NCBI GenBank assembly: GCA_902787415.1 | Contig: CADAGG010000003.1 | Coordinates: 1-21,053, forward strand | DNA length: 21,053 nucleotides | Reading direction: 5' to 3' | Origin: a methanogenic archaeon | GTDB lineage: Archaea; Thermoplasmatota; Thermoplasmata; Methanomassiliicoccales; Methanomethylophilaceae | In this document: piece after piece, positions 1-20,652 of the stretch | How the letters are laid out: each line of letters begins with the position of its first letter | How positions within the stretch are numbered: the first letter of the stretch is position 1 | Translations under genes and position numbers: made by a program | The notes under the pieces: model-generated | Seen by the model: only the letters and a program-made list of their open reading frames with translations | What the model was told of the DNA's origin: nothing | The model's database searches: none

Positions 1-3000
1 GCTGGTGTCGAGTGCGGTGAGCTTGCCGGCCAGGGTCGCGGGGACGTAGTTGGTGTCGCCGGCGACGGTGGTGTATCCGATGGTGGAGTAGACGGTTCCG
101 GCCGCTCCTCCCTCTTCGACGGCCTTGGCGACGGTGAGGGTCACGGACACGGAGCTGCTTCCTGCGGTGACGGTCTTGGACTCGGAGGAGACGTATGCGT
201 TGGTTCCGCCGGAGGCCTCTCCGCATACGTAGACGGTGTAGTCGCCTGCGTTGACGTAGGCGGTGGTCATACCGGGCTCTACCTCCCTGACGATGATGTT
301 GCCGGCGGAATCCACGAAGGTGACGGGGACGGTGTCGTCATCGGTGACGGTCTGTCCGAAGATGTCCTTTACGGTGACGCTGACCTCGCTCATGCCGGCG
401 CTGATCTCGAGGCCGGTGATGGCGTCTACGACAGAGACGGTAGCGGTGCCGAGCTGGACGTTGTCCTTGGTGTACACCTTGACGGAGTAGACGTCGGGCA
501 GCAGGCTGGCGGTGAATTCCTGGGGGTTAGAGACAGGGTCTGCGAACGATGCGGATACGACGTTGCCGTTGCTTCCGGTGAAGGTCATCTTGACCTGTTC
601 GGTTATGTAGTTTCCGCCGGTGGTGTAGGTGATGTTACCGCTGACTGCGACAGGGGACAGGGCCATGGCGGTCTGGACGCTGTCGAAGGTCTTGTAGAGG
701 GTTCCGTCCCTGAGGCCGGTGGATCCGACGTAGTACCTGACGACGTAGTCGGTGCCGGTGGGCACGGAGACGGTGTAGGTTCCGTCGGCGCTGACGTGGG
801 TGGTGCTGCGCTGCACGTAGGAGGTTGCTCCGCTGGCGAGGGGATCCTTCTCGAAGACGGAGACCCTGAGGCCGGAGACGTCCTCGGTGGAGGTGACGGT
901 TCCGCTCACGGCGGTCCTGGCGGAGGAGTTGTACTCGAGGACCACGACGGAGGAGAGGTAGTTGATGTAACCTCCCTCGGCCTTCTGCTTGGCGATGGCC
1001 GCGGTGGCATCCATGTCGGTCCAGGAGGCGGTGTCGTTGGCGCGGTACTTCACGTGCCAGTAGGAGACGGTGAAGTCGCTCATGCCGGCTGCGGGCTGTG
1101 CCTTGACGGTTCCGTCGGAGTTGCCGAGTGCCTCGAGGAGGGACAGGTTGCTGGATCCGGCGGTGGCGGTGAGGCCGTACTGGGAGGGGGTCACTCCGAT
1201 GAGTGCGTTCCACATGAAGGTCTCGTACATTCCGTCGAGGTAGTTGTAGTAGAGCTGTCCGAGTCCGCCGTACTGGTAGTACATCTGGGTGGTGGAACTG
1301 ACATCGTAAAGGGTGGCGATTCCGTTGTACTCAGTGGAGACGCGGTCTGCGTAGTATCCGATGGTGGAGGTGTAGCTTCCGTCGTTGTAGTAGGTCGGGA
1401 GCATGCTTCCGTCGACTGCGATGTAGGAGATGGTGCTGCCGCTGATTCCGCGGACGGTGTTGTAGAGATCGGCGAGCTGGTTCTCGCTGAGCTTCTCGGT
1501 GAGGTAGCTGACACCTACGATGTAGGGCAGGCTCTCGTCGTGGACGTTGGCGTTGTAGGCGACGAACTTGTCGACGTTGGCGGACATGTAGGCGCGGGCG
1601 TCGGCGGGGTTCTTGATGTACTTCGCGAGGTCGGGGACGCCTGCTGCGGTGAATGCGGAGCTGTAGGCGTCGGGGTTGCTCTCGGCGAGACGGATGATGA
1701 AGGATGCGATCGCACCGGAGCTGCCTGCGGACAGGTAGGCGGATGCCATGGCGGAGGTTCCGCCGCCCACGGAGCTGGTGACGGTGCTGAAGCCGCCTAC
1801 GGAGCTGGCGGCGTCGGAGTAGCCGTACCAGGACATGAGGGCGCCGGACTTGGCCTGGGAGCTGTAGGAATCCCAGGCGGCGTTGACCATGCTGGAGTCG
1901 GTGGTGTTCACGGTGTATCCGAGTCCTCCGAAGTAGTTGGAGTGCTCGTTGTTGGTGGGGGTGGCCGCATCGGCAGCGTACACCGCGGCGGGGGCCGCGA
2001 TGAGGCAGACAGCCACGAGGAGGGTGACGAGGGGGAAGAAGTCGAGTGCCTTCCTCAGTCCGCCCTTGACACCGAGGCCGCGGAGGGACTTGAGGTAGGC
2101 CTTGAGGTCGACCGCCCTGAACACCCTGACGATGAGTGCGGCGGATCCCACTGCGAATCCGGCACCGGCGACGATCGCATACTCGGCGCTGAACCAGCCG
2201 ATGAAGAAGCAGCAGAACAGCCACAGCATGACGAAGGTGTAGAGGTTGTATTTGGCGTTCGCACGGTACTTGTATGCCATCCATACGCCCAGGAACATGG
2301 GGAACCAGACGGTCAGCCATCCGTAGTAGGATGCCATGGAGGAGATGCTGGTCCTGCTGAACTGGTGGGCGAGGTCGTTGGCGAGGGCGCCCACCTGGGG
2401 GCTGCTGCCGTGGAGGAGGGCGGAGGATACGGAGGGTGCGAACACGGCGAGAACGGCCGCTACGGCGATGATCACCGCGAGGGTGAGGGGGATGGAGAGC
2501 ACCCAGGGCTGCTTCTCGAGGAGGAGGAACAGCACGCTGTAGGCCGCCACGAGGACCGCCAGGAGGCAGCCGCCCTGGAAGACGGTGCTCCACAGTCCGA
2601 GGGGGATGTAGTAGATGGCTCCGATTCCCACTCCCACCAGCACGATGAAGTTGCCGATGAGGACGGTGGCCAGGAGGTCCTTCCTGCCGATGCGCCTTAA
2701 CAGGAGGGTGACGAACATGATGGCCGCCGCGCATGCGATGATGGCCCAGAATCCGGTCCAGGTGAGGACGAGGAAGGCCATGAGCACCGCGGAGATGAAC
2801 ATGTTGGTCCTGAGGGGCTCGTTGGAGAACAGCTGTTTGAAGCCGGTGATCTCCACCGCGTCGGAAGCCTCGAGGGTCCTGATGACGAAGTAGACGAACC
2901 ATGCCATGAGGAAGCAGGTGAACGCATTCTCGGTTCCGTTGGAGAAGGCGGTCGTCATGATCATGAGCGGGAACAGTGCGTAGAACACCGCAGCCAGCAG

Positions 3001-3492
3001 TCCGACGAGCTCGTCCTTGAAGAGCTTCTTGCCGATGAGGTAGACAGGGAAGCAGGTCAGCGCGCCGATGATGGGTGCGGACCAGGCGAGGGTACCTGCG
3101 GCCGCCGTGGCCTGGCTGACCCCGCAGAGGGTCACGACGTAGGCGATGGCTGCCATGAGGTAGTCGAACAGGGGGCCGGAGATGCTTCCGGAACCGTACG
3201 GGAAGTTGATGGTTGCCTGGTTGGCAGGGTCGTAGGTTCCTGCAAGTATCTCGGTTACGATGCGAAGGTGACTGGATGCACTGGATCCGCCGGACAGGGC
3301 ATAATTGTCGCCGGCGGAGACCCCGTACGCGAACGCGAACCTAAGGATGAAGGCTACCGCGATGATCACGAACAGGGAGATCAGGCACCAGTGCGTTCTG
3401 AACCAGGATCCGTTGTTCCCGTTCTCGGAAACAGCGGCTGCCCCGCTTTCAGAAACGACGGGACTGGTTTTCTCTTTTGCAACTGTGCGCAT
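1..3492 (-). CDS. STT3/AglB-like membrane protein with degenerate catalytic motifs (3' end outside window)
   Basis: The frame is open for 1164 codons from ATG at 3492 to the window edge, so the C-terminus is missing. A GGAG lies 8 bases before the ATG. After a soluble N-terminus, residues about 32-500 hold many hydrophobic segments, followed by a Ser/Thr/Gly/Tyr-rich extracytoplasmic part. The STT3 fold is suggested by HLRIV at 75-79, by FPYG followed by GPLFD near 97-110, and by MSWYGYSD with W555. In active archaeal oligosaccharyltransferases, which move lipid-linked glycans to Asn in exported proteins, these areas carry DPYYH-, DxD- and WWDYG-type motifs. Here they read SASSH (71-75), TEN (187-189) and WYGYS (555-559). 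Residues from about 880 onward look like tandem beta-sandwich domains. It could be a catalytically dead paralogue, a divergent enzyme, or a scaffold. The fold is fairly sure; activity is doubtful. Confidence 0.8.
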   Translation of the reverse strand, partial: MRTVAKEKTSPVVSESGAAAVSENGNNGSWFRTHWCLISLFVIIAVAFILRFAFAYGVSAGDNYALSGGSSASSHLRIVTEILAGTYDPANQATINFPYGSGSISGPLFDYLMAAIAYVVTLCGVSQATAAAGTLAWSAPIIGALTCFPVYLIGKKLFKDELVGLLAAVFYALFPLMIMTTAFSNGTENAFTCFLMAWFVYFVIRTLEASDAVEITGFKQLFSNEPLRTNMFISAVLMAFLVLTWTGFWAIIACAAAIMFVTLLLRRIGRKDLLATVLIGNFIVLVGVGIGAIYYIPLGLWSTVFQGGCLLAVLVAAYSVLFLLLEKQPWVLSIPLTLAVIIAVAAVLAVFAPSVSSALLHGSSPQVGALANDLAHQFSRTSISSMASYYGWLTVWFPMFLGVWMAYKYRANAKYNLYTFVMLWLFCCFFIGWFSAEYAIVAGAGFAVGSAALIVRVFRAVDLKAYLKSLRGLGVKGGLRKALDFFPLVTLLVAVCLIAAPAAVYAADAATPTNNEHSNYFGGLGYTVNTTDSSMVNAAWDSYSSQAKSGALMSWYGYSDAASSVGGFSTVTSSVGGGTSAMASAYLSAGSSGAIASFIIRLAESNPDAYSSAFTAAGVPDLAKYIKNPADARAYMSANVDKFVAYNANVHDESLPYIVGVSYLTEKLSENQLADLYNTVRGISGSTISYIAVDGSMLPTYYNDGSYTSTIGYYADRVSTEYNGIATLYDVSSTTQMYYQYGGLGQLYYNYLDGMYETFMWNALIGVTPSQYGLTATAGSSNLSLLEALGNSDGTVKAQPAAGMSDFTVSYWHVKYRANDTASWTDMDATAAIAKQKAEGGYINYLSSVVVLEYNSSARTAVSGTVTSTEDVSGLRVSVFEKDPLASGATSYVQRSTTHVSADGTYTVSVPTGTDYVVRYYVGSTGLRDGTLYKTFDSVQTAMALSPVAVSGNITYTTGGNYITEQVKMTFTGSNGNVVSASFADPVSNPQEFTASLLPDVYSVKVYTKDNVQLGTATVSVVDAITGLEISAGMSEVSVTVKDIFGQTVTDDDTVPVTFVDSAGNIIVREVEPGMTTAYVNAGDYTVYVCGEASGGTNAYVSSESKTVTAGSSSVSVTLTVAKAVEEGGAAGTVYSTIGYTTVAGDTNYVPATLAGKLTALDTS

Positions 3493-3550
3493 TCTCGAAT
3501 CTCCGTAAATCGATTTGGAATAGCGCACAATACCCGAATCTGTATTTAAC

Positions 3551-3601: not shown

Positions 3602-4249
3602 TCAGAGCACGCTCTGAATCTCTTTGCAGATCTGCTCGGCGACCGCCCTGGGGTTCTCGGCCTTGTAGATCGCCCTGCCCACGATGACGTAGTCGGCGCC
3701 GGCCTTGATGGCGTCCGCGGCGGAGCCTCCCTGGGCACCGACGCCGGGAGAGAGGATCTCGCGGTCGCCGATGATCTTCCTGATGGCGGCGATGCGCTCG
3801 GGACGGGTCGCAGGGGCGATGAAGCCTGCCACTCCGCACCTTACTCCCATCTGTGCCAGAGCCTCCGCGTTGGGGGCGGTGAACTCCTTGCCTCCGGGGT
3901 GGCTCATCTCGGTCACGGCGTAGATCACGGCACGGTCTCCGGCGGTCTTCACGGCCTCCTCGAGGGAGTCGCTGCCGGGGAAGGCGTGGACGATGACCGC
4001 GGCCGCGCCGCGGTTGACGGAGCCCTCCACGATGAGGTGGACGGTGTTGGGGATGTCCGCGACCTTGAAGTCGCAGATGACGTCGGAGAACTTGGACAGC
4101 TCGGTGATGATCTCGGGGCCGGCTGAGAGCACCAGGGGCCAGTTGATCTTGATGGCGTCCACGAGTCCGGCCACGGACCCGGCGATTGCCAAGGCTTTGC
4201 TCTTGTCGGTCTCGTCGAGTGCCAGAATAAGGCGCGAACTCTTTCTCAT
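3602..4249 (-). CDS. pyrF: Orotidine 5'-phosphate decarboxylase
   Basis: PyrF decarboxylates OMP to UMP, the last step of de novo pyrimidine synthesis, in the cytoplasm. The 215-residue protein has the usual archaeal length. LALDE at 9-13 supplies the N-terminal Asp (D12), K34 lies in DAIKINWP, and DFKVADIPNT (60-69) contains the catalytic Asp-Lys-x-x-Asp array D60, K62 and D65. GVGAQGG and IVGRAIY near the C-terminus match the phosphate-binding loops. ATG at 4249 was chosen because LILALDE follows at the expected distance and because it lies about 24 bases from the TATA box at 4270-4277, which suggests a nearly leaderless transcript. The frame stays open upstream across the opposite-strand radical SAM gene, but that part is not coding. 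No other pyr gene is nearby. Confidence 0.96.
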   Translation of the reverse strand: MRKSSRLILALDETDKSKALAIAGSVAGLVDAIKINWPLVLSAGPEIITELSKFSDVICDFKVADIPNTVHLIVEGSVNRGAAAVIVHAFPGSDSLEEAVKTAGDRAVIYAVTEMSHPGGKEFTAPNAEALAQMGVRCGVAGFIAPATRPERIAAIRKIIGDREILSPGVGAQGGSAADAIKAGADYVIVGRAIYKAENPRAVAEQICKEIQSVL

Positions 4250-5853: not shown

Positions 5854-6135
5854 TCACAGCGTTAAGATGTTGGAAGTACCCTTGTCGATGATGGCAAGAG
5901 CGGATACGGAGAAGGGCTTTCCACACAGAGCGCCGAGCTCCATGTTGTTTCCACTGTAGATGTGGATCTTGACGTCCTTGTTGTTGACAAGGGCCGCGCT
6001 GGGACAGTTGGAGGAAAGGACGATCATCTGTGCCTTTCCGGCCTTTACTGCCTTCTCGGTCTGGTCAACTCCGAACTCCACCTTACCGGTGGAGATCGCT
6101 GCCTTCAATGCCTTGCTAATATCTACTTCGCTCAT
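5854..6135 (-). CDS. rpl30e: Ribosomal protein L30e
   Basis: This 93-residue protein matches archaeal and eukaryotic L30e, a component of the large ribosomal subunit that binds kink-turn RNA. Diagnostic stretches are [15 protein letters not shown] near the start, the loop IVLSSNCP, and [18 protein letters not shown], where the RNA-binding loops and core of the L7Ae/L30e fold lie. Its ATG (6135-6133) overlaps the rpoA2 stop codon as ATGA, and GGAGG lies a few bases upstream within the rpoA2 3' end, so translation is coupled. A position between rpoA2 and nusA is the common archaeal arrangement. Nothing unusual was seen. Confidence 0.96.
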
Positions 6136-7649
6136 TCAATATCCTCCTTGTTTGCTTTGGGATCGTAATAAAGTTTGATTGCTCCGGTTCCTAAGGTCAC
6201 CGGCTGACCTACAATGATGTTTTCAGTCACTCCCTCGAGCCTGTCGACCTCTCCCACCATGGCTGCGTGCAGCAGGTGGGCGGCGGTGATCTCGAAGGCT
6301 GCCCTTGCCAGGACAGAGGACTTCTTTCCGGACACTCCGTTCCTTCCGATGGCCCTTACGGTTCCGTCGTTGGTCATGAGGTCCGCTACGAGCATGATGT
6401 GCCTGACGTCGACATCCAGACCTGCGTTGCCCAGGGTGGAGGTGGCCTCATAGATGATAGAGTTCCTGGCCGCCTCGATTCCGAAGACATCGCCGATCTC
6501 GATGATGGAGTTGGTCATGACGTTGTCCACGTCGACACCCTCGACCTGCAGGATCTCCTTCAGGTTGCTGCCCTCGGTGACGATGCTGTACTGACCGGTC
6601 TTGGGGTCAGGGTGGATGAGTGCCCTCTTGATGCCCTCGACTCCCTTGAGCCTGGCGTTCTTGATGGCCTCGTACATCTCCTGCAGCTTGGTGAAGGGTG
6701 CGGGGTTCTCGGGGTCGGACGAGATGATGATGTTGCATGCCACGTCGTTGTTGACGGGTCCGTCGAAGGAGACCGCGCTCTTCTCGACCAGACCGCGGAC
6801 GGCCTTGATCTTGTTGAGCTTCTCGACGATGTCGTCGACCTTCAGTCCGCGCTTGTCCATCTTCATCGCATCGGGGACGATCAGGATCCTCATGTTGGTG
6901 ATGTCGGTCTCGATGGAGGCGACGTCCAGCAGGGTGGTGATCTCGATCTCGGATGCGACGTGCTCGGCGAGTGCCTGGTCCTCCTGCGCCAGTCCCTTGA
7001 GGGGGATGTTCATCGAAGGGGTGCTGGGCTCGCGCCTGGCATCCACGATCTCGATGAGACGGGGAAGACCCTGGGTAACGGACACGGATGCGACTCCCGC
7101 GAAGTGGAAGGTACGCAGGTTCATCTGGGTACCGGGCTCTCCGATGGAGTGGGCCGCCATGACTCCGGCGGACTCGTTCTGGACCATCTTGTGGCTGGCG
7201 TACATCTCGGCCGCGCGGACGAGGAGCTTCTCGCAGATCTCGTCGGAGAGGTCCGCGCCCTCGATCCTGTCGGCGATGTCGTAGACGACCTTCTTGGGGA
7301 TCTCGAGCTTGAGAGATGCGACCATGTCCATGAGCTTGGTCTCGGTCTCGGTCTGCACGTGGGGGTTGGAGTACTCCTCCTGGGGTACCTGGGGCTCGGC
7401 GGGAGCCTCGGGCTCCTCCGCCACGACCGCCTTGGGGGCGGCGCGGGGCTTGGAGGTCTTGCGGGTACCGATCTTGTCGATGATCTCCTTGGCGACCGCC
7501 TCGTCGAGTCCTTTCTCGACGAGTCCGTCGACTCCTGCGGAGGAGATGTCTCCGAGGCTGCCGTAGCCGTACTGCTTCACGACGGTGGTCGCGACCTCGT
7601 CGGCGATGCCCCTCTTCACTAATGCTGCGATGGTATCTTTCTGTGCCAT
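6132..7649 (-). CDS. rpoA2: RNA polymerase subunit A'' with an HhH-like N-terminal extension
   Basis: RpoA'' is the C-terminal part of the split largest polymerase subunit and carries the trigger loop. [19 protein letters not shown] at 168-186 is the trigger-loop signature, and [15 protein letters not shown] near the C-terminus is a second conserved block. The protein has 505 residues, about 100 more than the usual RpoA''. The extra part is a helix-hairpin-helix-like module (about 1-61; [29 protein letters not shown]) joined by a Lys/Ala/Pro/Glu-rich linker (about 62-100). I chose ATG at 7649 because GGAGGTGA (7663-7656) lies 6 bases upstream; a GTG at 7655 is also in frame and overlaps the rpoA1 stop. 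It sits between rpoA1 and rpl30e. Confidence 0.96.
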
Positions 7650-7651
7650 TA

Positions 7652-10600
7652 TCACTCACCTCCCTCGTAGTCGGAGTCGCCGTCAGAGTCGAGGCTGTCC
7701 TCGTCGCTGTCGTAGTCTCCGTCGTCGTCGAAGCCCTCGAGGTCCTTCTCGCGGGATCCGTAGTCGTCTCCCTCGTTCTCCTTCTTGTCGACGTTGAGGA
7801 GCTTGTCGGCGTCCTCTCCGAGGACCTCGGCGAACAGGTCGTTGAGGTTGACCGCGTCTCCGCGGACTGCCCTGGAGGGGTCGATTCCGTCCTCTCCGTA
7901 CTTGAACTGCACGATGGTTCCGACGGTGTTGGTGATACGTCCGTCGTGGTAGACGGTGGCCGCGTTCTCGGTGGTGAGCTTGAGGTCCTCCAGTGCGGAG
8001 ATCAGACGCCTCTGCATGTATCCGGACCTGGCGGTACGGACGGCGGTATCGACCAGACCCTCCCTTCCTCCCATAGCGTGGAAGAAGAACTCGGTGGGGG
8101 TCAGACCGGTCTTGTAGGAATCCAGACAGAATCCCTTGGCGTATGCTCCGAGGTCTCCCTTGTGGAAGTGGGGCAGGGTCCTGTCCCAGTATCCCCTGGC
8201 GATCCTCTCACCACGGACGGACTGCTGTCCGACGCATCCTGCCATCTGGGACAGGTTGAGCATCGAACCACGGGCTCCGGTCTTGGCCATGATGACGGCG
8301 GGGTTGGTCATACCGAGGTAGTTTCCTGCGATCTTACCGGCCTGGTCACGGGCTCCGGACAGGATTCCCTGGGCCCTGACCTCGAGGGTCTCCCTGACGG
8401 ACCTTCCGGGCATCTGCTCGAGGGTTCCGTCCCTGAAGGACTCGACGAGCTCGTCGACCTGCTGGATGCACTCCTTGGAGTTCTCCCTGATCTGGTTGGC
8501 CGCCTCCTCGGGGATGTCCTCGTCGCTGATACCGGTGGAGAATCCGTGGTTCATGACGGCTCCGAGGGCGAGCCTGGTGGCGTCGTACAGGAACCTGGCG
8601 GCGCGGTCGGATCCGTAGTCGCGGGCGATCTTCTCGAGGATCTTACCCTTGCTGTTTCCGATTCCCTTCTCGTCGATGGTTCCGGTGATGAGCTTTCCGT
8701 TGCGGATCCTCACGAATCCGTCGGTGGGGCAGACTCCTCCGGGGTTCTGTCCCTGGCAGCGTCCGCCGCACTGGCAGACGGCCGCCCTGTAGGTGAGGTT
8801 GAGGTCCTCGGGGAGGGCGATGGAGAACAGGTCCTTTCCGGTCCAGTAGGGCTGGCCGTTCTCGTCGGTGCCGCTGGGCTCGGGGATGGGCCTTGCTCCG
8901 TCCCTGTTGAGCTCCTCGAAGAGCATGTTCTTCTTTCCGCCGAGTCCGACATCGCTCAGTTTGTAGAGGATGTTCATGGTCTCGTACTTGTTGAACCTGA
9001 CGTCACCGTGGGTGAGGAAGTACGAACCGGAGATATGGTCGTGGATTCCTCCGATGATGGGTCCTCCGTACCTGGGGGACAGGATGTTCTCCTGGACCTG
9101 CATGATGATGCGGGCCTCGGCCCTGGCCTCCTCGGACTGGAGGACGTGCAGGTTCATCTCGTCACCGTCGAAGTCTGCGTTGTAGGGGGCGCAGTCGGTG
9201 AGGTTGAACCTGAAGGTACGTCCCTTCATGACGACGACGCGGTGGGCCATGATGGACATCCTGTGCAGCGAAGGCTGCCTGTTGAACAGGACGATGTCCT
9301 TCTCTCCGTTGCGTCCGTCGCTGAGCTGCCTCTCGATGACGTAGTCGATGTTGAGGTTCTCCGCCACGGTGGGCGCGTTCTCGGAGGTGACCTTGATCCT
9401 CCTTCCGTCGTTCCTGAAGACGTAGTTGACTCCGGTCAGGAAGTCCTCGTCCATCTCGTCGTCGGTGAGTCCCTTGGCCACGTAGGCGTTGGATGCCTCG
9501 AGGTCGTAGGTTCCGTCCTCCTTGTTGAGGAACCTGCCGAAGGCGAGGGGCCCGCGCATGACGAACTTCCTCATCTCCTCGAGGTTCTGCTCGTTGACGT
9601 GCATGGGAACGGTGAGCTCCCTGGCGGCGCGGACGGGCACTCCGACGTGGTTGATGGAGAGGTTGGGGTCGGGGGAGATGACGGTACGGGCGGAGAAGTT
9701 CACACGCTTACCGGACAGGTTGGACCTGAACCTTCCCTCCTTACCCTTGAGCCTCTGGGCCAGGGTCTTGAGGGGCCTTCCGGACCTGTGCCTTGCGGGA
9801 GGGATTCCGGAGGTCTGGTTGTCGAAGTAGGTGGTGACGTGGTACTGAAGGAGCTCCCAGAGATCCTCGACGATGAGCTGGGGTGCACCGTTGTCACGGT
9901 TCTCCCTGAGCCTCTGGTTGATCCTGAGCACGTCGACCAGCTTGTGGGTGAGGTCGTCCTCGGACCTGTCTCCGGACTCCAGGGTGATGGAGGGCCTGAC
10001 GGTCACGGGGGGCACGGCGAGGGCGGTGAGGACCATCCACTCGGGCCTGCAGACGGCAGGGTCCATTCCGAGCGCCCTGAGGTCGTCGTCGGGGATCCTC
10101 TCGAGCCTCTCGCGGACCTCGAGGGGGGTCAGCTTCTTGTTGTTCTCGTTGACGATCCTGAAGGTGGTGGGCTTGTCGAGCTTGATCTTGCTCTGCTCAG
10201 CGTTACAGTAGGGGCAGATTCCCCTGTTGGAGGCCGCCTTGACGGTCTCCTTGCTGTAGTTCTTCTGATCGATGGTGTCTCCTCCGAGGTCGGAGATGGT
10301 GTTCAGCCTGTCGATCCTGTTCTGGATCTCCTCGGGGGAAAGCATGAGCCTGCCGCACTTGCAGCAGGTGGACTCCAGCATGAGCTTGATGTCCTTCACG
10401 AATCCGACGTGGATTACGGGCATGGCGAGCTCGATGCGTCCGAAGTGTCCGGGACACTCGTCGACCTTGCAGTTGCAGGTCTTGCAGCGGAGTCCGGGCT
10501 CGATGACTCCCATGCGGGGATCCATGAGACCGCCCTGGATGGGGTATCCCTCGTCGTCGTAGGTGTCGGCGGTGATGATCTTCACCGCGGACATGTTCTT

Positions 10601-10663
10601 GATCTCTTCGGGAGAGATGCAGGAGAACTTGATGGATCCGATTTTCCTATCTACAGTGTTCAT
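7652..10663 (-). CDS. rpoA1: RNA polymerase subunit A' with an acidic C-terminal tail
   Basis: RpoA' holds the catalytic centre of RNA polymerase. [10 protein letters not shown] at 495-504 contributes the three metal-binding aspartates D497, D499 and D501. The N-terminal zinc site is visible as C60, C63, C70 and H73 (GHFG), with further cysteines at C100-C103 and in CPYC. A later cysteine cluster, CQCGGRC with a following CPTDG, is in a place where archaeal A' subunits often carry one. The 1003-residue length exceeds the usual size of about 870-900, partly because of a tail (about 960-1003) in which roughly 21 of 44 residues are Asp or Glu, mixed with Ser and Gly. The start ATG overlaps the rpoB stop as ATGA. 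The function is certain; the tail's role is not known to me. Confidence 0.98.
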
Positions 10664-13600
10664 GAAAGGTCCTCCAGCTGAAGCCTCATGGCTACACCCA
10701 GCGACAGAAGCTCATCCATGAGGAGCTTGAACGCGTAGGAGGTCTGCACGAGGTGGATGTTCGTGTTGCTCTTGCAGACAGGACAGTAGCACTGGCCCTG
10801 CCTGTCGGTGATGGCGATGTGACCGCAGTTCGGGTTGCCGCAGACGTACTGCTGGGTTCCGTCAGACTGGTCGAGGAGACGGTCCTTGATGACCATGGAT
10901 ACACCGTGACCGATCAGACAGTCACGCTCCATCTCTCCGAACCTGAGACCTCCCTGCCTGGAACGTCCCTCGGTAGGCTGCCTGGTGAGGATCTGCACGG
11001 GTCCCCTGGACCTGTAGTGCAGCTTTCCGGAAACCATGTGGTGCAGCTTCTCGTAGAAGATGACTCCGGTGTAGATGTCGGCCTCGACCATGTGTCCGGT
11101 CCTTCCGTCGTACATGATCTCTTTTCCGGACCTTGCGAATCCGTTCCTGACGAGTCCGTCGCGGATGGAATCCTCGGACTCTCCGGAGAAGGCGGTACCG
11201 TCGATGGTGCGGGCCTCCATGGATCCGACCTTACCGGCGATCATCTCGAGGACGTGTCCGACGGTCATACGGGAAGGAATACCGTGGGGGTTGACGATGA
11301 TATCAGGGGTGATACCGTCGGAGGTGAAGGGCATGTCGCACTGGTCGACGAGCCTTCCGACGACTCCCTTCTGTCCGAACCTGGAACAGAACTTGTCACC
11401 GAGCTCGGGGATCCTCTCGTCCCTGACCTTGACGCGGACGAGCCTGGAGCCGTTCTCGCTGGCGGTGACGATGACGGAGTCGACGTATCCCTTCTCTCCG
11501 GGCCTGACGGTGACGGAGGTCTCCCTGTCCTTCTGGGTGGACAGCATGCTTCCGGTGTCCTCCTCGAGGAACCTGGGGGGAGAGGTCTTTCCGATGAGGA
11601 CATCGGATCCCTCGACGTAGGACTCGGGGGAGATGAGACCGTCCTCTCCGAGGTGGGCGTAGGCCTCGTCGGCGCGGACGCCGACCACATCGGGGGAGGG
11701 GATCTGGAACTTGTCAGCGGTTCCTCCGGGGTAGAGACGCTCCTCGGCACGGTAGGACCTCATGAAGGTGGACCTTCCGAGACCCCTCTGCACGGAGGAC
11801 CTGTTCATGACGATAGCATCCTCGATGTTGTATCCGTGGTAGCACATGACCGCGATGCAGAAGTTCTGTCCTGCGGGCCTGTACTTGTAGCCCATGAAAT
11901 CCATGGTCTGGGTCTGTACCAGGGGGACCTGGGGGTAGTGCATCAGGTGTCCGCGGGTGTCGGGCCTGATACGGTAGTTGGCGGTAGCGATTCCGAGGGC
12001 CTGCTTTGCCATTCCCGCACCCATGGTGATACGGGGTGCGGAGTTGTGCTCGGGGTAGGGGACGATACCGGCGGCGACTCCCAGGATGATCATGGGGTCG
12101 ACCTCGAGGTGGGTGTGCTCGGGGGTGATGTTGGAGGGCAGGGTGAACTTGCCGCTGCACCACCTGCAGGTGAGCTCGCAGTCCTCGGCCTTGCCGGGGT
12201 TCATCCAGTCTACGTCGGTCTGGGACAGTGCGTGACCGCAGCAGGGGCACCTGTGGGGCAGGTCGTAGGGGGAGACGAGAACGAGTGCGTCCTCCTCTTC
12301 CTCAGCGTCGATCCACTCGAGGATTCCCTCTCCGAAGAGGTCGTCCCAGGTGAATCCGCCGCGGGACTCGTCGCTGATGCTCTCGCGGATGGCCTCGAGG
12401 TGCTTCCTGGTGAGGACGGTCTTTCCGTCCTTGAGGACGAGCAGGGGCCTTCTGAGACGGCCCTCGTCGCAGTTGATGATGATCTCCTCCATCGCGGTGT
12501 CGTAGTGCACGTTGATGGTGTTGTTGATGAGTCCGTACCTCCTGCGGTTCCTGAGCTCGTCGACGAGCCTCTGGGGGTCGCGGGAGGTTCCGACCAGGTC
12601 ACCGTTGAGGAAGACACGGGTCTCCTCCTCGTTGACGGTGTCGAGTCCCAGCTCCTTGAGGAGCTTGTAGACGTCGCGCTCGTTGCAGGCGTGGGAGACG
12701 TCGATGATGAGGGCGGCGTTCTTCACCAGACCGCAGTTCTGACCCTCGGGGGTCTCGGAGGGGCACAGCCTTCCCCACTGGGTGGGGTGAAGGTCACGTG
12801 CCTCGAAGTGGGGCTGGCTCCTGGTCAGGGAGGAGGTGATCCTCCTGAGGTGGGACATGGCGGACATGTTGGAGGTCCTGTCGAGAAGCTGGGAGACTCC
12901 GGCGCGTCCTCCGACCCAGTTACCGGTTGCAAGGGCGTGGATCAGCTTGTGGGTGAAGAGGTCGGGGCGGATGGCGGATGCGATGTTGTAATCGTACTTC
13001 TTCCTGCCGAAGTTCCTCTCGAGCTGGTACTTCAGGTCCTTGATGAGGGAGGTGAAGCTGGTCCTGAAGAGATCCTCCATGAGGTCTCCGGACAGCTTGA
13101 GCCTCTTGTTGGCGTAGTGGTCCTTGTCGTCCTCCTTCCTGTTCTTGAGGGAGAGCTCGAGGACGGATTTGGCGATACGGCCGAGGAAGATGGCCTTCTT
13201 CTTCCTGGCGTCCTTGGTGTCTCCCAGGTGGGGGAGCAGGGAGCGGTCCAGGATGGACTCGACCTTCTTGGTCCTGTATTCCTTTGCCTGACCGGCGGCA
13301 AAGTTCCTCTCGAGGTATGCGATGGCATCCTCCTGGGTGTGGAATCCGTTGGGCAGCCAGTCCTTGGTGTTGAAGGAGTTCTCGATGTTGGCCATGACGG
13401 TGAGCTCCATGGCGTCGTCGGAACAGATGGTGTCGTGGATCTCTTTGTCGGATTCCATTCCGAGTGCTTTCATGAGGGCGACGAGGGGGATCTCCTGGGG
13501 GACGACGGGGACGGAGACCATCAGGGTTCCGTCCTTCTTCTTCTCCACCTGGGTCAGTGCACGGTATCCCTCTTTCTGGGAGAAGACCTTGGCGGTCTCC

Positions 13601-14325
13601 ACGGCGGCACCGTACCTCTCGCTGTACTCGACCATGACCCTGTTGGGGGCGAGGTCTTCAAGGGTGATGAGGACCCTCTCGGTTCCTCCGATGATGAAGT
13701 ATCCTCCGGGCTCGCGGGGGTCCTCCTTCTGCTCGATGAGGTACTGCTTGTACTCCTCATCGGTGAGCTTGCGGTCCTGGGCCTGGTCGACGATCTCCCT
13801 GTCCAGGTTGCATCCGTTGGACCTGACCATCATGGGGATCTCTCCGATGTGGATCCACTCGTCGGCCAGATCCTTCTTCACTCCGTCCTCGTAGACCTCG
13901 AAGTGGACCTCGACGCTGGACATGTAGTTGAGGTTCCTGAGCCTGGCCTCCATGGGGGAGAGCTTGTGCTTGTATCCGTTGGCCTCGGTGACCTCCGGAG
14001 GGTGGATCCTGATGGTGGACTCGCTCTGGGCGAGGATGTTTCCGTTCTTGTCCCTCTTCCTTCCGATGTGGATCTCGATGTCCTTACCGTTGGTGCGCTC
14101 GGGGTCGAGCTTGATGATACCTCTCTCGGCGTCATCGGTGGGAACCCTGATGTCATCGACGATCCTCTGCATCCTGCTGTTGAGGTTCTCGGAGACGATC
14201 TTGTCGGTACCTGCCTTGTCCGAATCGTGGACGGTGGCGAGGAAGTCGTTGAAGGACTCGACGTGGTGGTTGACGATGTCTTTGTCCTTGAAGTATAACT
14301 TGACTAAATCCCTCAAAAATATCAC
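10660..14325 (-). CDS. rpoB: RNA polymerase subunit B (unsplit) with a zinc-ribbon-like insertion
   Basis: RpoB is the second-largest polymerase subunit and forms the active-site cleft opposite A'. The 1221-residue chain is continuous, not divided into B' and B''. Hallmarks are DKFCSRFGQKGVVG, GEMERDCLIGHG and the C-terminal zinc site C1162, C1167, C1181 and C1184. Between EEEEDALVLV and EHTHLEVDP, where I expect a short linker in other archaea, there is an insertion with C693-x2-C696 and C720-x2-C723, probably a second zinc ribbon. The start is not ATG: GTG at 14325 overlaps the rpoH stop as GTGA, and TTG at 14316 has GGGTGA 5 bases upstream. Either works; GTG gives the listed coordinates. 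The subunit call is certain, the start codon is not. Confidence 0.97.
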   Translation of the reverse strand: MIFLRDLVKLYFKDKDIVNHHVESFNDFLATVHDSDKAGTDKIVSENLNSRMQRIVDDIRVPTDDAERGIIKLDPERTNGKDIEIHIGRKRDKNGNILAQSESTIRIHPPEVTEANGYKHKLSPMEARLRNLNYMSSVEVHFEVYEDGVKKDLADEWIHIGEIPMMVRSNGCNLDREIVDQAQDRKLTDEEYKQYLIEQKEDPREPGGYFIIGGTERVLITLEDLAPNRVMVEYSERYGAAVETAKVFSQKEGYRALTQVEKKKDGTLMVSVPVVPQEIPLVALMKALGMESDKEIHDTICSDDAMELTVMANIENSFNTKDWLPNGFHTQEDAIAYLERNFAAGQAKEYRTKKVESILDRSLLPHLGDTKDARKKKAIFLGRIAKSVLELSLKNRKEDDKDHYANKRLKLSGDLMEDLFRTSFTSLIKDLKYQLERNFGRKKYDYNIASAIRPDLFTHKLIHALATGNWVGGRAGVSQLLDRTSNMSAMSHLRRITSSLTRSQPHFEARDLHPTQWGRLCPSETPEGQNCGLVKNAALIIDVSHACNERDVYKLLKELGLDTVNEEETRVFLNGDLVGTSRDPQRLVDELRNRRRYGLINNTINVHYDTAMEEIIINCDEGRLRRPLLVLKDGKTVLTRKHLEAIRESISDESRGGFTWDDLFGEGILEWIDAEEEEDALVLVSPYDLPHRCPCCGHALSQTDVDWMNPGKAEDCELTCRWCSGKFTLPSNITPEHTHLEVDPMIILGVAAGIVPYPEHNSAPRITMGAGMAKQALGIATANYRIRPDTRGHLMHYPQVPLVQTQTMDFMGYKYRPAGQNFCIAVMCYHGYNIEDAIVMNRSSVQRGLGRSTFMRSYRAEERLYPGGTADKFQIPSPDVVGVRADEAYAHLGEDGLISPESYVEGSDVLIGKTSPPRFLEEDTGSMLSTQKDRETSVTVRPGEKGYVDSVIVTASENGSRLVRVKVRDERIPELGDKFCSRFGQKGVVGRLVDQCDMPFTSDGITPDIIVNPHGIPSRMTVGHVLEMIAGKVGSMEARTIDGTAFSGESEDSIRDGLVRNGFARSGKEIMYDGRTGHMVEADIYTGVIFYEKLHHMVSGKLHYRSRGPVQILTRQPTEGRSRQGGLRFGEMERDCLIGHGVSMVIKDRLLDQSDGTQQYVCGNPNCGHIAITDRQGQCYCPVCKSNTNIHLVQTSYAFKLLMDELLSLGVAMRLQLEDLS

Positions 14326-14585
14326 CCATTGATGACGAGCCTGTAGGCGATGAACTCACCTGCGGTCTCGCTCTTCCTGATTATCTTGATGATGCTTCCT
14401 TCCTGGATTTTGCCGTGGATCTGCTCCAGGTAGACCACAGCGGGGTCATCCATCCTGATTTTGGGAAGCTTGTCCTTCTCGACCTGAAGTTCTTTGAGAA
14501 CCTCGGCGGCCTGCTCCTCAGTGAGAAGGTGGTGCTCAGGCACGAGCCTGTGCGCTGGATTAAACGAGTTAGTAGTTGCTGCCAA
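14322..14585 (-). CDS. rpoH: RNA polymerase subunit H (Rpb5 C-terminal homologue)
   Basis: RpoH corresponds to the C-terminal domain of eukaryotic Rpb5 and sits at the polymerase jaw. The 87-residue protein shows the expected features: LVPEHHLLTEEQ near the start, KLPKIRMDDPAV in the middle, and SIIKIIRKSETAGEFIAYRLV at the end. TTG at 14585 is the only plausible initiation codon, because the frame is closed by TGA upstream with no ATG or GTG between; GGTGA lies 4 bases before it. It is the first gene of the rpoH-rpoB-rpoA1-rpoA2-rpl30e-nusA operon and its stop overlaps the rpoB start. I found no convincing TATA box in the 113 bases between this gene and the upstream tRNA, so it may be transcribed together with that tRNA. 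Confidence 0.95.
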   Translation of the reverse strand: MAATTNSFNPAHRLVPEHHLLTEEQAAEVLKELQVEKDKLPKIRMDDPAVVYLEQIHGKIQEGSIIKIIRKSETAGEFIAYRLVING

Positions 14586-14945: not shown

Positions 14946-17171
14946 ATGGTCGAAGTTCTGACGATGAAAGTGGACATCCCCAAGCGCATCACCGAGGCGG
15001 GTTACGGACGCGCCCGTCTCGATCCCGAGGCCTACACGAAGCTCGGGCTCTCCATCGGCAACATCATCGAGATCACCGGCAAGAAGACCGTGGTCGCCAA
15101 GGTGTTCAGGAGCGATGCGGAGGACGAGGGGACCAACGTCATCAGGATCGACGGACTGACCAGGACCAGCGCGGAGGTCTCCCTCGGGGAGAACGTGAAG
15201 GTCCGCAAGTGCGACCCCCAGCGGGCCGAGAAGATCATCCTCGAGCCCAAGATCCCCGAGGGGTCCCGCATCAGCGTCGACAAGGGCTTCACCGAGATCT
15301 TCAAGAACAACCTCATCAGCCGCCCCGTCGTGGCGGGCATGGACATCACCGTCCAGAACATCTCGCTGATGGGCAACAGATCCATATTCAACGTGGTGTC
15401 CACCGTGCCCCAGGGGCCGGTCGTGGTCTCGTCCATCACCGACCTGGTCATCCTGGAGGAGCCCAGGAAGCGCAAGAGCACCTCCAAGACCGAGGAGGGC
15501 GGCATCGGCCGCGACAACAAGAACACCACCTACGACGACATCGGCGGACTCAACGACGAGCTGCGCCGCATCAGGGAGATGAGCGAGCTCCCCCTGAAGC
15601 ATCCCGAACTCTTCGAGAGGATGGGCATCTCCGCCCCCAAGGGACTCCTGCTCTACGGTCCCCCGGGAACCGGGAAGACGCTCATCGCCGAGGCGCTGGC
15701 CAACGAATCCGGCGCCAACTTCTTCTCCATCCGCGGACCGGAGATCATGAGCAAGTACTACGGCGAGTCGGAGAGCAAGCTCCGCACGCTGTTCCAGACC
15801 GCCGAGAAGAACTCCCCCAGCATCATCTTCCTCGACGAGATCGACTCCATCGCCCCCAACCGCGACAGCGCCTACGGGGAGCAGGAGCGCCGCGTGGTGG
15901 CCCAGCTGCTGTCCCTGATGGACGGCATGGGAGGCCGCGGTAACGTCATCGTCATCGGTGCCACCAACCGTGAGGATTCCATAGACCCAGCACTCAGAAG
16001 ACCGGGCCGTTTCGACAGGGAGATCGAGATCGGTGTGCCCAACAAGCAGGGCAGGGAGACCATCCTCGGGGTGCACACCCGCAACATGCCCCTGGCGGAG
16101 GATGTGGACCTGGCGGCGCTCTCCCGCATGACCCAGGGATTCGTGGGCGCCGACCTCGCCGCCCTGGCCCGCGAGGCCGCCATGAAATGCCTCAGCAGGC
16201 ACATGGTCAAGCTGGACCTGGACCAGCCCGTCCCCAGCGAGCTGCTGGAGACCATCAAGGTCAACATGAAGGACTTCGTCGATGCCCTCAGCGAGGTGGA
16301 GCCCAGCGGCATGCGCGAGGTCTCCATCGAGGTCCCCAAGGTCACCTGGGACGACATCGGGGGACTCGACAGCGTACGCAGGGAGATACAGGAGACCCTC
16401 CTGCCCGACGAGGACAAGAAGGACTTCGAGAGGCTTGGGATCACCCCCGGCAAGGGAGTCCTGCTCTACGGTCCCCCGGGAACCGGAAAGACCCTCATCG
16501 CCAAGGCGGTGGCCAACGAGTCCGGCGCCAACTTCATCCTGGTCAACGGTCCCGAGATCGCCAGCAAATGGCTGGGCGAGAGCGAGCAGGCCATCAGGAA
16601 GATCTTCAAGCGCGCCAAGCAGATGGCTCCCTCCATCATATTCTTCGACGAGATCGACTCCATCGCCCCCAGGAGGGGCTCCGAGGACAACGAGGCCTGG
16701 GAGAGGGTGGTCGCGCAGCTGCTGACCTCCCTGGACGGCGTCGAGCAGCTCAACCACGTGCTGGTCATGGCCGCCACCAACCGCCCCGACATGCTGGATC
16801 CCGCACTTCTCAGACCGGGACGCATCGACCGCCTGGTGCTCATCGGCAAGCCCGACACCAAAGGCAGGGTCAGCATCCTGAAGATCCACACCAAGAACAT
16901 GCCTCTCGACGATGATGTCGACCTGGAGGCGATTGCCGATGCGACCTCCGGTTACGTCGGTGCCGACCTCTTCGCGCTGTGCCGCGAAGCGGGACTCCAC
17001 GCCTACCGCAAGGACCACGATGCCAAGACCGTTTCCGCGGCGGACTTCGAGGCCGCGATGAAGATCATCAAGCCCTCGGTGGACGACAACGTTTTCAAAG
17101 CCTACGAGAAGATGGGCTCCGAGATCAAGAAAAGGAAGGACAGATGGAACGACGTCCCCTTCTACTCCTGA
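14946..17171 (+). CDS. cdc48: Cdc48/VAT-type AAA+ unfoldase with C-terminal HbYX-like end
   Basis: Cdc48/VAT is a cytoplasmic hexameric ATPase that unfolds proteins by threading them through its pore. The 741 residues match the usual length. An N-terminal substrate-binding domain (about 7-190) precedes two AAA domains. D1 has Walker A GPPGTGKT at 238-245, pore loop KYYG at 270-273 and Walker B with D297 and E298. D2 has Walker A at 509-516, pore loop KWLG at 541-544 and Walker B with D568 and E569. The last three residues, FYS, fit the hydrophobic-Tyr-any pattern that docks ATPases on the 20S proteasome. ATG at 14946 is the first after an in-frame stop at 14928; ATG at 14964 is an alternative. 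It is divergent from tRNA-Lys and ends against elp3. Confidence 0.97.
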
Positions 17172-18707
17172 TCACAGGTCCCTGACCATGTAAGGATGCT
17201 CGAGACGGTAGCCCAGCGAAGCGTAGTACTCCCTGACACCGATGCCACTGGTGATGCGCACCTTGGTCTTTCCCTCGGAACGGGCGACCCTCTCGGCCTC
17301 GGCCACCAGCTTCTTTCCGAATCCGCGGTGCTGCCAGCTCTCCGCCGCCGCCCCGATCGCGGTCTCGTTGCCGAATACCTTCAGTTCGCGAATCGACGCG
17401 ACGTCGCTGTCGTCGGTGCGGAGGCGGACGTAGCCCACCAGGGAATCCCCGTAGGTGTACGAGATGAAGCGTTCGGTCCCTCCGGCCGCTTCGTACTCCA
17501 GGGTCTCGAGCTTCAGTTTTGATTCGTCCTCGAGGACCGCGCCGGTGTGTCCGACCTCGCGGCAGCGGATGCACCTGCACTTCATGCCGTGCTCCTCCAT
17601 ATTCCTCTGAACGAGCTGACGGAGGTTGCTCTTGAGGATGCCGCAGGCGATCTCGGGCACCGGGATATCCCTCTGAATGCGCTGTATCCTCACATAGTCT
17701 GGCACTATCGATTTCATCCTCGAGAGGAGGTCGGTCGCCTGCTCCACCGTGTAGGGCACGTACTCCCCGTTCTCCCACATCTCGTAGAGCCTGGTGCCCG
17801 GGATCACCAGGGTCGGATAGAACTTCAGCATGTCCGGACGGAAGTCGGGGTTCTCGAAGCATTCCCTGAAGCATTCCAGGTCCTTCTCCGGGGTCGCCCC
17901 GGGAAGTCCCGGCATGAGATGGTAGCATACCTTCAGCCCGTGGGAACGGCATGCCCTGGTGGCCTCGATGACCTCCTTCACGCCGTGCCCGCGCTCGACG
18001 CCCGCCAGGATGCCGTCGTCCAGGATCTGGACGCCCAGCTCCACGCGGGTGGCCCCCAGGGCCATCATGCGCTCGATCTGCTGGTCGGTACGGAAGTAAT
18101 CGGGACGGGTCTCGACGGTGAGGCCTATGCATCTGCGCTGGGAGTGCGAGTTCTCCTCCTGGGCAGCCAGGAGGTTCGGGGAAGGATGGCCGTTCATGGC
18201 CTCCAGGCATCTCTGGACGAACCATTCCTGATACTGGGGGTTACGGGAGGTGAAGGTCCCGCCCATGATGATGAGATCTATCTTGTCGGTGTCGTGGCCG
18301 ATCTCCTCGAGCTGCGTGAGCCTGCTCTCCACCTGGTCGTAGGGGTCGAAGCGGTTCATGGCGGCCCTTCTGGCCGCGGGCTCCTTACCGGTGTACGACT
18401 GGGGGGAGTCGTTGGAGACCCCTCCGGGACAGTAGGCGCACTTGCCGTGGGGACACGGATAGGGGGAGGTCATCACGGCGACCACGGCGACGCCGCTGGC
18501 GGTGCGCATGGGCTTCTTGACGAGCAGCGGCAGGAACCTCTTCTTCTCCTCCTCGGTGACAAGTGCCAGCACCTCGGAATTGGAGGGTACCTTCTCGGCG
18601 CCGTACCTGGCGCAGAGCTTCATCTTGAGACGCTGAAGGTCCTCGCGGTCGGAGACCTCTCCTGAGCGCAGCGCTTCGAGGATGCGCTCGGCTACGATGC
18701 CTGCCAT
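17172..18707 (-). CDS. elp3: Elp3 tRNA wobble-uridine modification enzyme (radical SAM plus GNAT)
   Basis: Archaeal Elp3 acts without the other Elongator subunits and builds the carboxymethyl group on uridine-34 of tRNA from acetyl-CoA. The 511 residues show an N-terminal basic tRNA-binding part, a radical SAM domain with C85-x4-C90-x2-C93 (CPHGKCAYC), conserved MGGTFTSRNPQYQEW and ELGVQ blocks, zinc-site cysteines in MKCRCIRCREVGH, and a C-terminal acetyltransferase domain with the acetyl-CoA loop QHRGFG from Q459 and REYYASLGY. All expected cluster ligands are present. ATG at 18707 directly follows the stop of the winged-helix gene (18710-18708), so the two are cotranscribed. Its stop codon abuts that of cdc48 with no spacer. 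A tRNA-Lys(TTT), a possible substrate class, is encoded nearby, but that may be coincidence. Confidence 0.96.
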   Translation of the reverse strand: MAGIVAERILEALRSGEVSDREDLQRLKMKLCARYGAEKVPSNSEVLALVTEEEKKRFLPLLVKKPMRTASGVAVVAVMTSPYPCPHGKCAYCPGGVSNDSPQSYTGKEPAARRAAMNRFDPYDQVESRLTQLEEIGHDTDKIDLIIMGGTFTSRNPQYQEWFVQRCLEAMNGHPSPNLLAAQEENSHSQRRCIGLTVETRPDYFRTDQQIERMMALGATRVELGVQILDDGILAGVERGHGVKEVIEATRACRSHGLKVCYHLMPGLPGATPEKDLECFRECFENPDFRPDMLKFYPTLVIPGTRLYEMWENGEYVPYTVEQATDLLSRMKSIVPDYVRIQRIQRDIPVPEIACGILKSNLRQLVQRNMEEHGMKCRCIRCREVGHTGAVLEDESKLKLETLEYEAAGGTERFISYTYGDSLVGYVRLRTDDSDVASIRELKVFGNETAIGAAAESWQHRGFGKKLVAEAERVARSEGKTKVRITSGIGVREYYASLGYRLEHPYMVRDL

Positions 18708-19175
18708 TCAGCTTTTCTCCGCTCTCTCCCTGACGAGTTCCTGGAAGCGGAGGACGGTCTTCTTGTAGTTCTCCATCGCGAGGTTGACGTTGGCCTCGGT
18801 GAAGCTCCACGCCTTGACCAGGTCCCCGTACCTGATGCGGAATCCCTTCCTCATCTGCCCGTCCTCGGCGGGGACGTCGGCATTCTCCAGGAGGTCCATG
18901 GAACGGAGCTTGTTGATGTGGCGGTAGATGGTTGGTTTGGACGTGTCCAGAAGGGCTGCCAGCTCCTCGGCGGTCCACGCTTTGGAGGGGTTCTTCATGA
19001 AGAAGTCCATGAAAAGACGGTAGGGGATGCTGTCCCTGACCGAAAGGGCACCGGCCGAACGGGGATCGTATCCCTTGGGGAGATATCCGATCTGCACGAG
19101 GAAGGTCTCGGCAAGGACATCGAGGTCGTCGACGCCGGTCATGGGGGTGTTTGATACAACCTGTAGTTCGAACAT
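18708..19175 (-). CDS. Winged helix-turn-helix transcriptional regulator, ArsR-like
   Basis: This 155-residue soluble protein is a DNA-binding regulator of unknown target. Residues about 48-115 form a winged helix: a helix with SIPYRLFMDFFMKNP, the helix-turn-helix WTAEELAALLDTSKPTIYRH (67-86), NKLRSMDLLE, and a wing ending in KGFRIRYG (110-117). The last 30 residues are a predicted helix that could dimerise the protein. The N-terminal 45 residues match nothing I recognise. It precedes elp3 without a gap. ATG at 19175 lies about 27 bases from a TATA-like AACTTATT (19205-19198, minus strand), suggesting a leaderless transcript. Nested inverted repeats cover this promoter, which fits autoregulation. 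ArsR-like assignment is by pattern only. Confidence 0.85.
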   Translation of the reverse strand: MFELQVVSNTPMTGVDDLDVLAETFLVQIGYLPKGYDPRSAGALSVRDSIPYRLFMDFFMKNPSKAWTAEELAALLDTSKPTIYRHINKLRSMDLLENADVPAEDGQMRKGFRIRYGDLVKAWSFTEANVNLAMENYKKTVLRFQELVRERAEKS

Positions 19176-19238
19176 AATCAGGCCTGCTATACATGCAATA
19201 AGTTAAGCGTGATACTTAACTATTTTCGAACACAGGTT
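19158..19238. promoter_or_regulatory. Nested inverted repeats around the winged-helix gene promoter
   Basis: The outer arms are AACCTGTAGTTCGAA (19158-19172) and TTCGAACACAGGTT (19225-19238); they are complementary except for one extra base. The inner arms AGTTAAG (19201-19207) and CTTAACT (19215-19221) are perfect complements around CGTGATA. The inner dyad overlaps the probable TATA box (19198-19205) of the winged-helix gene, and the lower outer arm covers its first codons. Each outer arm contains the small palindrome TTCGAA. The upper arm touches the stop codon of the upstream regulator gene, so the stem might also act as a terminator for the trxA-trxB operon. Confidence 0.6.
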
Positions 19239-19753
19239 CAAAGGCTGCCCTTGATGCTGTCAAGGATGTTGATGACGCTGTCGAGCGGGAAAACGGTGTA
19301 CACCTTGATGGAGATGATCTTCTCCACGGTGTTGGCCACGATGGGCGCGCACACTATACCCAGAGCGTTGTCGCGCTCTGCGCGGACGGCGGCGATGATG
19401 GCATCCTCCACGGTGGACACGGGGTACTCGCGGATGGCGACCGGACCGTTGGCGCCGGTCTCCAGCGAACGGGGGAGACCCTCCATGAACCTGGGGGATG
19501 CGATGACGGCCACGAACTTCTCGGAGTCGCGGCGGTTGATCCTGTTGATGGCCTTGATGATCTGCCTGATGGTGCGGAGGTTGGGCTCGCGGCGCTCCTC
19601 CAGGATCTTGTACATGGTGCTCTGCGAGATGTCGGCGACCTGGCAGAACTCGTTCAGGGACATCTTCAGCTCGTTGTCGAGGATCTCCTTGAAGGCGGTC
19701 TGGAACCCTCCCTCGTCCCTCAGCATGCTGGAGATCAGGTCCTGTACGGTCAT
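19238..19753 (-). CDS. Helix-turn-helix transcriptional regulator in the thioredoxin operon
   Basis: This 171-residue protein has a Cro/cI-type helix-turn-helix: SLNEFCQVADISQSTMYKIL (32-51) followed by EERREPNLRTIRQIIKAINR. Residues about 78-171 form a separate alpha/beta domain starting FVAVIASPRFM, with REYPVSTVEDAIIAAVRAERD and ALGIVCAPIV. This resembles an archaeal regulator group I associate with COG1709, recalled with moderate certainty; its ligand is unknown to me. ATG at 19753 overlaps the trxB stop as ATGA, so it is the third gene of trxA-trxB-regulator. C37 in the helix-turn-helix region and C135 in the second domain could in principle sense redox state, but no CxxC pair is present. 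The N-terminal start is secure because of the overlap. Confidence 0.85.
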   Translation of the reverse strand: MTVQDLISSMLRDEGGFQTAFKEILDNELKMSLNEFCQVADISQSTMYKILEERREPNLRTIRQIIKAINRINRRDSEKFVAVIASPRFMEGLPRSLETGANGPVAIREYPVSTVEDAIIAAVRAERDNALGIVCAPIVANTVEKIISIKVYTVFPLDSVINILDSIKGSL

Positions 19754-20643: not shown

Positions 20644-20652
20644 GTGCCGCCC

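Follow-up and report, generated by a model that had tools for sequence, protein, structure and literature searches.

N-glycosylation by the oligosaccharyltransferase AglB is reported for all sequenced archaea but two species, Aeropyrum pernix and Methanopyrus kandleri (PMC8993221). In AglB of Archaeoglobus fulgidus (structures 3waj, 5gmy and 7e9s), Asp47, Asp161 and His163 are described as metal ligands, with Glu360 of the TIXE motif also named; WWDYG is part of the site for the sequon Ser/Thr, and Arg426 is placed near the lipid phosphate (PMC8342417). A precedent for a scaffold of the glycosyltransferase C (GT-C) fold is PIG-U, in which the DxD motif of external loop 1 (EL1) reads SSW and the channel is described as closed (PMC12653191). 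Here we analyse a stretch of 21,053 nucleotides (the window; contig CADAGG010000003.1 of assembly GCA_902787415.1) from a methanogen of the family Methanomethylophilaceae, order Methanomassiliicoccales, with relatives among gut archaea, whose minus strand encodes an STT3/AglB homologue. Compared with the A. fulgidus enzyme, this protein has the metal ligands, the TIXE Glu, the phosphate-site Arg and WWDYG replaced, and adds a giant ectodomain. We read it as an oligosaccharyltransferase homologue turned pseudoenzyme. We consider it likely that this pseudo-oligosaccharyltransferase, vertically inherited and the only AglB detected, had its metal, sequon and lipid-phosphate sites dismantled, with glycosylation lost and STT3 kept as a scaffold.

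Close counterparts are intact STT3 proteins of the same order, such as P0121 and the Methanomassiliicoccus luminyensis protein P0218, which share the locus behind pyrF and the arrangement of STT3 domain, large ectodomain and C-terminal hydrophobic segment. They differ in keeping DxxYH, DHD, TISE and WWDYG and in having sequon-enriched ectodomains, and genomes of the order's other families differ from the altered group in carrying AglJ-like matches. The resemblance to PIG-U, part of the GPI transamidase (a eukaryotic multi-subunit complex), is one of fold and proposed role only. PIG-U is not an STT3, and the window protein, with its predicted GT-C fold and replaced catalytic motif, would work like it without being a member of its family.

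The gene is an open frame running from 3528 to 1 on the minus strand (as do all features of the gene given below) and encodes 1,176 residues. Two candidate starts exist, GTG at 3528 and ATG at 3492; because the former is used here and an earlier note on this DNA chose the latter, our residue numbers are 12 higher. The 3′ end is lost at the contig edge, since contig C3 (26,295 bases) starts with the first base of the window; most full-length relatives are about 1,800–2,050 residues long. The predicted protein comprises a multi-helix STT3 transmembrane domain (residues ~42–522, positions 1963..3405; helices of the AlphaFold2 model and AglB structure matches), an extracytoplasmic globular AglB-like domain (residues ~523–950, 679..1962) and the start of a beta-sandwich ectodomain (residues 951–1176, 1..678; model strands), which in relatives extends past this contig edge. 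CarboxypepD_reg repeats were detected in the ectodomains of P0121 and P0022 (the Methanomethylophilus alvi homologue, 46% identity) and none was found in P0002. The ectodomain of the intact P0121 (~900–2000) also matches NOMO_5th above the cut-off and a NOMO1-like domain below it; these matches to the eukaryotic BOS complex may hint that AglB and the translocon are linked.

The family assignment comes from profile comparison. The window protein matches the archaeal STT3 family TIGR04154 of NCBIfam at E 4.3e-27 and 94.8 bits, the curated cut-off being 450 bits, a score reached by none of 151 class genomes. No family was matched in a Pfam search, and searching the PDB by sequence alone returned no match. 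A profile of the window protein and 24 other family members, intact and altered, aligns to A. fulgidus AglB (3waj) at E 3.7e-32, and a second profile of 12 intact members does so at E 5e-26. By these profiles the protein is homologous to STT3/AglB, and its AlphaFold2 model has the AglB fold, a multi-helix bundle followed by a C-terminal globular domain, with structure matches to AglB and also to ArnT, DPY19 and PIG-U. A close named relative, P0004 from 'Candidatus Methanomethylophilus sp.', is 88% identical, and judging by such names the host is probably a methanogen close to Methanomethylophilus.

In the profile alignment to 3waj, Asp47 corresponds to S83 of the first-loop SASSH (residues 83–87, 3268..3282), Asp161 and His163 to T199 and N201 of the second-loop GTEN (residues 198–201, 2926..2937), and SWWDYG to SWYGYS (WYGYS at residues 567–571, 1816..1830). 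The substitutions that the earlier note had read as SASSH, TEN (here 199–201) and WYGYS are thus real, and the alignments add two further losses. Glu360 of TIXE is replaced by Q389 in an EL5 segment (residues 386–390, 2359..2373) that has also lost the Thr and Ile positions, and residue 449 (2182..2184), at the place of Arg426, is not Arg. The features of an active N-oligosaccharyltransferase, namely Asp47, the second DXD ligands, the TIXE Glu and WWDYG, are therefore lacking. Intact Asp residues and a WWDYG equivalent elsewhere in the protein, which the note had said would overturn its reading, were not seen in the alignments or by pattern search. An assembly error or frameshift is an unlikely cause, because genome G012 and the homologues P0001–P0120 share the altered state.

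This state is clade-wide, as the note's proposed survey of relatives now indicates. Near homologues were compared as the best 120 of 124, with only candidates sharing most words being scored. None of the 120 listed retains Asp161, so the alteration is not due to chance, and none retains the full WWDYG or the phosphate-site Arg; the TIXE column holds Glu in eight, with Thr and Ile kept at only 0.01 and 0.08. The altered group also has new clade-specific invariant residues. In the comparison set of matches to an intact relative (best 120 of 590), the listed proteins keep Asp47 in 115/115 with a letter at that position, Asp161 in 119/119, and the TIXE Glu and WWDYG in 120/120 each. Thirty loci from a class-wide search keep Asp47, the TIXE Glu and WWDYG throughout and Asp161 in 17; these loci scored highest among the matches from 151 genomes, with four coming from the window's order, and so lean towards intact copies. 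Within the family of the window itself, three members (G022, G026 and G035) are intact.

Partly altered forms occur as well. P0113–P0117 and P0120 appear as stepwise intermediates that keep WWDF and, in five of six, Asp47, and have lost Asp161 and TIXE. In another family of the order, G041 carries an independent, partly altered STT3 (L048) on a long branch (1.01), with Asp47 and Asp161 kept, EADYFG and WNGYG present and TIXE lost; its AglJ-like match is kept, and a second STT3 copy was not found in this genome. Further, 13 of the 30 class loci (L067, L072, L074, L076, L078, L079, L080, L082, L085, L086, L087, L091 and L092) have Asn and Leu in the second-DXD ligand columns, reading ANYL or GNYL in the five sequences displayed, with Asp47, the TIXE Glu and WWDYG intact. 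These are possibly active enzymes with a different metal site.

The loss of Asp161 has a single origin, and the locus is orthologous. With the motif columns masked, a tree of 49 rows places the 32 altered rows on one side of a branch with an SH-like approximate likelihood ratio test (SH-aLRT) support of 100, and the loss of Asp161 takes one change. A FastTree tree of 175 rows also gives one change for Asp161 and gives seven for Asp47, which is consistent with Asp161 having been lost first and Asp47 repeatedly afterwards. A pyrF match adjoins STT3 in 63 of 91 altered and intact loci (tblastn), a count in which some genomes enter twice and many class-search loci have little flank. In the window this upstream neighbour, which we take to be pyrF (orotidine 5′-phosphate decarboxylase), lies at 3602..4249 on the minus strand. 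Given the single-origin tree and the shared neighbour, the altered and intact forms are the same gene, and the altered form is not a replacement paralogue.

A likely first step of glycan supply seems to be gone from the altered group. The family TIGR04182, presumably AglJ-type, matches at E values of 3.8e-33 or below in all 24 genomes sampled from the other families of the order (including G041), and at 1e-20 in 6/102 genomes of the window's family. Among the 91 family genomes with an STT3 hit, the STT3 score exceeds 200 bits in six and is below 146 in 85; an AglJ-like match is present in 4/6 of the former and 0/85 of the latter, with motifs read directly in 3/6 and 31/85, respectively, and the rest, including G226, G227 and G229, classed by score. 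Two incomplete assemblies, G020 and G228, have an AglJ-like match and no STT3 hit. Methanomassiliicoccales use TAG for pyrrolysine, and the match in G020 (C121:18801-19559) holds five TAG codons; its open frame has 229 codons, and the match may overrun the gene. Matches to glycosyltransferase family 2 (GT2) are usually fewer in the family, at 0–7 in 36/37 genomes and 17 in G009, than in 24 others, at 2–16; host-associated methanogens are described as having fewer glycosyltransferases generally (PMC9723798). PF00953 is uninformative, because it is absent from 61/61 genomes of both groups.

Sequon content was expressed as the ratio of the NxS/T count to that in shuffled sequence. For ectodomains of proteins of at least 1,700 residues, which are related and hence not independent points, the ratio is 1.75 in 115 intact proteins versus 1.18 in 116 altered ones; the 32 closest to the window protein give 1.07. 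Per genome, it ranges over 0.73–1.70 in the altered group and from 0.48 (short fragments) to 2.44 in the intact group. Secretome samples are small (11–15 proteins in altered genomes, 3–12 in intact); under the stricter filter they give 0.95 (0.71–1.20) and 0.98 (0.64–1.23) for the altered G012 and G017, and 1.56 (1.31–1.98) for the intact G042 and 1.87 (0–2.02), on three proteins, for the intact G026. The laxer filter gives 1.07 for G012, 1.01 for G017, 1.12 for the intact G048 and 1.60 for G042. Proteins without membrane segments have ratios of 0.83–1.05 in all five genomes.

Several observations weigh against a loss of glycosylation with retention of a scaffold. Asp47 persists in 14/120 and WWD in 6/120 of the listed near homologues, and change is not confined to the active site, as 68 of 167 invariant positions are kept at 5% or less. 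TIGR04182 at 1e-20 also matches four bacterial control genomes, and no class-relative genome, intact or altered, reaches its own cut-off (325 bits); for these reasons the assignment is loose and we speak only of AglJ-like matches. The intact-type genomes G022 and G229 (73% and 67% complete) have no strong AglJ match, and some GT2 glycosyltransferases remain. Both groups retain the cis-prenyltransferase PF01255 of polyprenol synthesis (58/61 genomes), by which loss of the polyprenol carrier was rejected. Altered ectodomains keep a slight sequon excess, the 1.18 overall rising to 1.31 in 34 of P0086–P0120. The secretome of the intact G048 shows no enrichment (0.98, 95% 0.61–1.50); G042 and G026 agree with a loss of glycosylation in the altered group, and G048 does not.

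Alternative explanations differ in what they make of the retained gene. In altered pairs, the ratio of nonsynonymous to synonymous substitution (dN/dS) of the STT3 domain is 0.14–0.37 and is lower than that of the ectodomain in 6/8 pairs having both values, and the altered frames are open across many genera, mostly with at least 1,800 codons. Together with the clade-wide fixation, the one Asp161 origin and the predicted AglB fold, these values support the view that the catalytic residues are gone and the scaffold is kept by selection. A functionless slow decay, with the gene a relic open by chance, could account for the longer branches and somewhat higher dN/dS of altered compared with intact copies, but it is highly improbable in the face of the open frames, the low STT3 ratios and the new clade-specific invariant residues. 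It is also unlikely, if less so, that the ectodomain alone, as an adhesin or envelope protein, explains retention and that STT3 is a mere anchor without a role of its own. Altered members do retain the ectodomain, and class matches outside the window's family place STT3 in long frames, mostly of ~2,050–2,430 codons; however, STT3 is the more constrained part in those six pairs, and fixed residues occur all the way from the first transmembrane segment (TM1) to the globular domain at the C-terminus.

It is common for a pseudoenzyme to be paired with an active paralogue, and the earlier note had proposed such a partnership with an active AglB elsewhere. Yet neither in the window's genome (82.6% complete) nor in the relatives examined, which include the 99%-complete genus members G007, G010, G011 and G012, the last three being single-contig, did profile and protein searches find a further full-length STT3; a regulatory partner of another AglB is thus extremely improbable, unless an active copy sits in the unassembled part of the window's genome or is too divergent for these profiles. 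The sole PF02516 match in that genome is L001 (18.4 bits, below the cut-off), which from its sequence we take to be an MMPL-like transporter and not a second AglB. Extra matches in relatives are split contigs or weak matches below the cut-off (e.g. G044, G047, G051 and G056). In one genus relative a separate contig bears a 100-residue fragment (G008:C163:20-319), 50% identical to residues 518–617 of the window protein, which may be a split strain copy, a contaminant or a second gene. No STT3 hit was obtained in 11/102 family genomes, one of which (G014) carries an altered copy by protein search. The other route is chemical. ArnT- and DPY19-type GT-C enzymes act by a metal-independent route, and the window protein, whose fold also matches both, could in principle transfer sugar from a dolichyl-phosphate monosaccharide donor with H87 and E200, which stand at the old metal site, as new catalytic residues. 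Among the listed near homologues, E200 is kept in 107/120 and H87 in 105/120, residues 87 and 200 covary (H/E 105, N/non-E 13, N/E 1, Q/E 1), and cis-prenyltransferase and some GT2 enzymes are retained. But the covariation, once relatedness is corrected for, is not significant (3 to 0 at best for independent pairs, p 0.25 or more) and is no proof of a new site; four of 31 altered genome loci have H87 without E200, and sequon enrichment is weak. New chemistry is disfavoured, and this form of it very unlikely, because the phosphate-site Arg is gone in all 120 listed homologues, there is no strong AglJ-like match, and the H87/E200 pair is missing from several subclades, the one with M. alvi among them. 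Of the earlier interpretation, the loss of catalytic residues from a scaffold kept under selection is supported, and the partner role is not.

On balance, we lean towards a history in which most of this methanogen family dropped N-glycosylation and its single-copy STT3 became a membrane scaffold without catalytic activity, in which residues at and near the old active site were newly fixed. Because the same architecture is found by comparing descendants, the ancestral AglB would already have been an STT3 domain fused to a large CarboxypepD_reg/NOMO-like sandwich ectodomain with a C-terminal hydrophobic segment (a membrane helix). This fusion to a giant surface ectodomain may have given the AglB gene a second job. 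A single loss of N-linked glycosylation would then have occurred in the common ancestor of most family members, M. alvi included, so that the altered group would now lack N-glycans. With the glycan supply gone, selection on the active site would have ended, and the membrane bundle and the ectodomain would have remained of use. We infer that the STT3 bundle now serves as membrane anchor and assembly scaffold for a surface stalk and may still sit next to the Sec translocon, a guess from the usual location of oligosaccharyltransferases.

Two other parts of the window are ordinary. The minus strand of 6132–14585 holds an RNA polymerase cluster of a kind usual in archaea, presumably the largest subunit as two genes (A′ and A″), rpoB and rpoH, with L30e and a NusA-like protein adjoining. 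The genes at 14946–20964, also judged ordinary, are taken from their sequences to be a CDC48-like AAA ATPase, an Elp3-like radical SAM acetyltransferase, a regulator, a thioredoxin reductase and a thioredoxin.

In titles and abstract openings of the open-licence literature, nothing pointed to an altered AglB that is fixed throughout a lineage, although an earlier description is possible. Like A. pernix and M. kandleri, the altered clade, most of a family, apparently lacks AglB activity; in those two species the gene is reported missing, whereas here it is kept in altered form. If this is true, the clade would add a third exception, far larger than the other two, to the near-universal N-glycosylation of archaea, and its protein would be a natural pseudo-STT3 fixed lineage-wide. 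The series from intact, through Asp161 lost, to Asp47 lost would offer a natural stepwise record of a polytopic glycosyltransferase becoming a scaffold. The prediction for cultured strains is that N-glycopeptides are absent in M. alvi and present in Methanomassiliicoccus luminyensis, whose homologue P0218 has intact motifs. The presence of AglB in a genome could then no longer be read as the presence of N-glycosylation.

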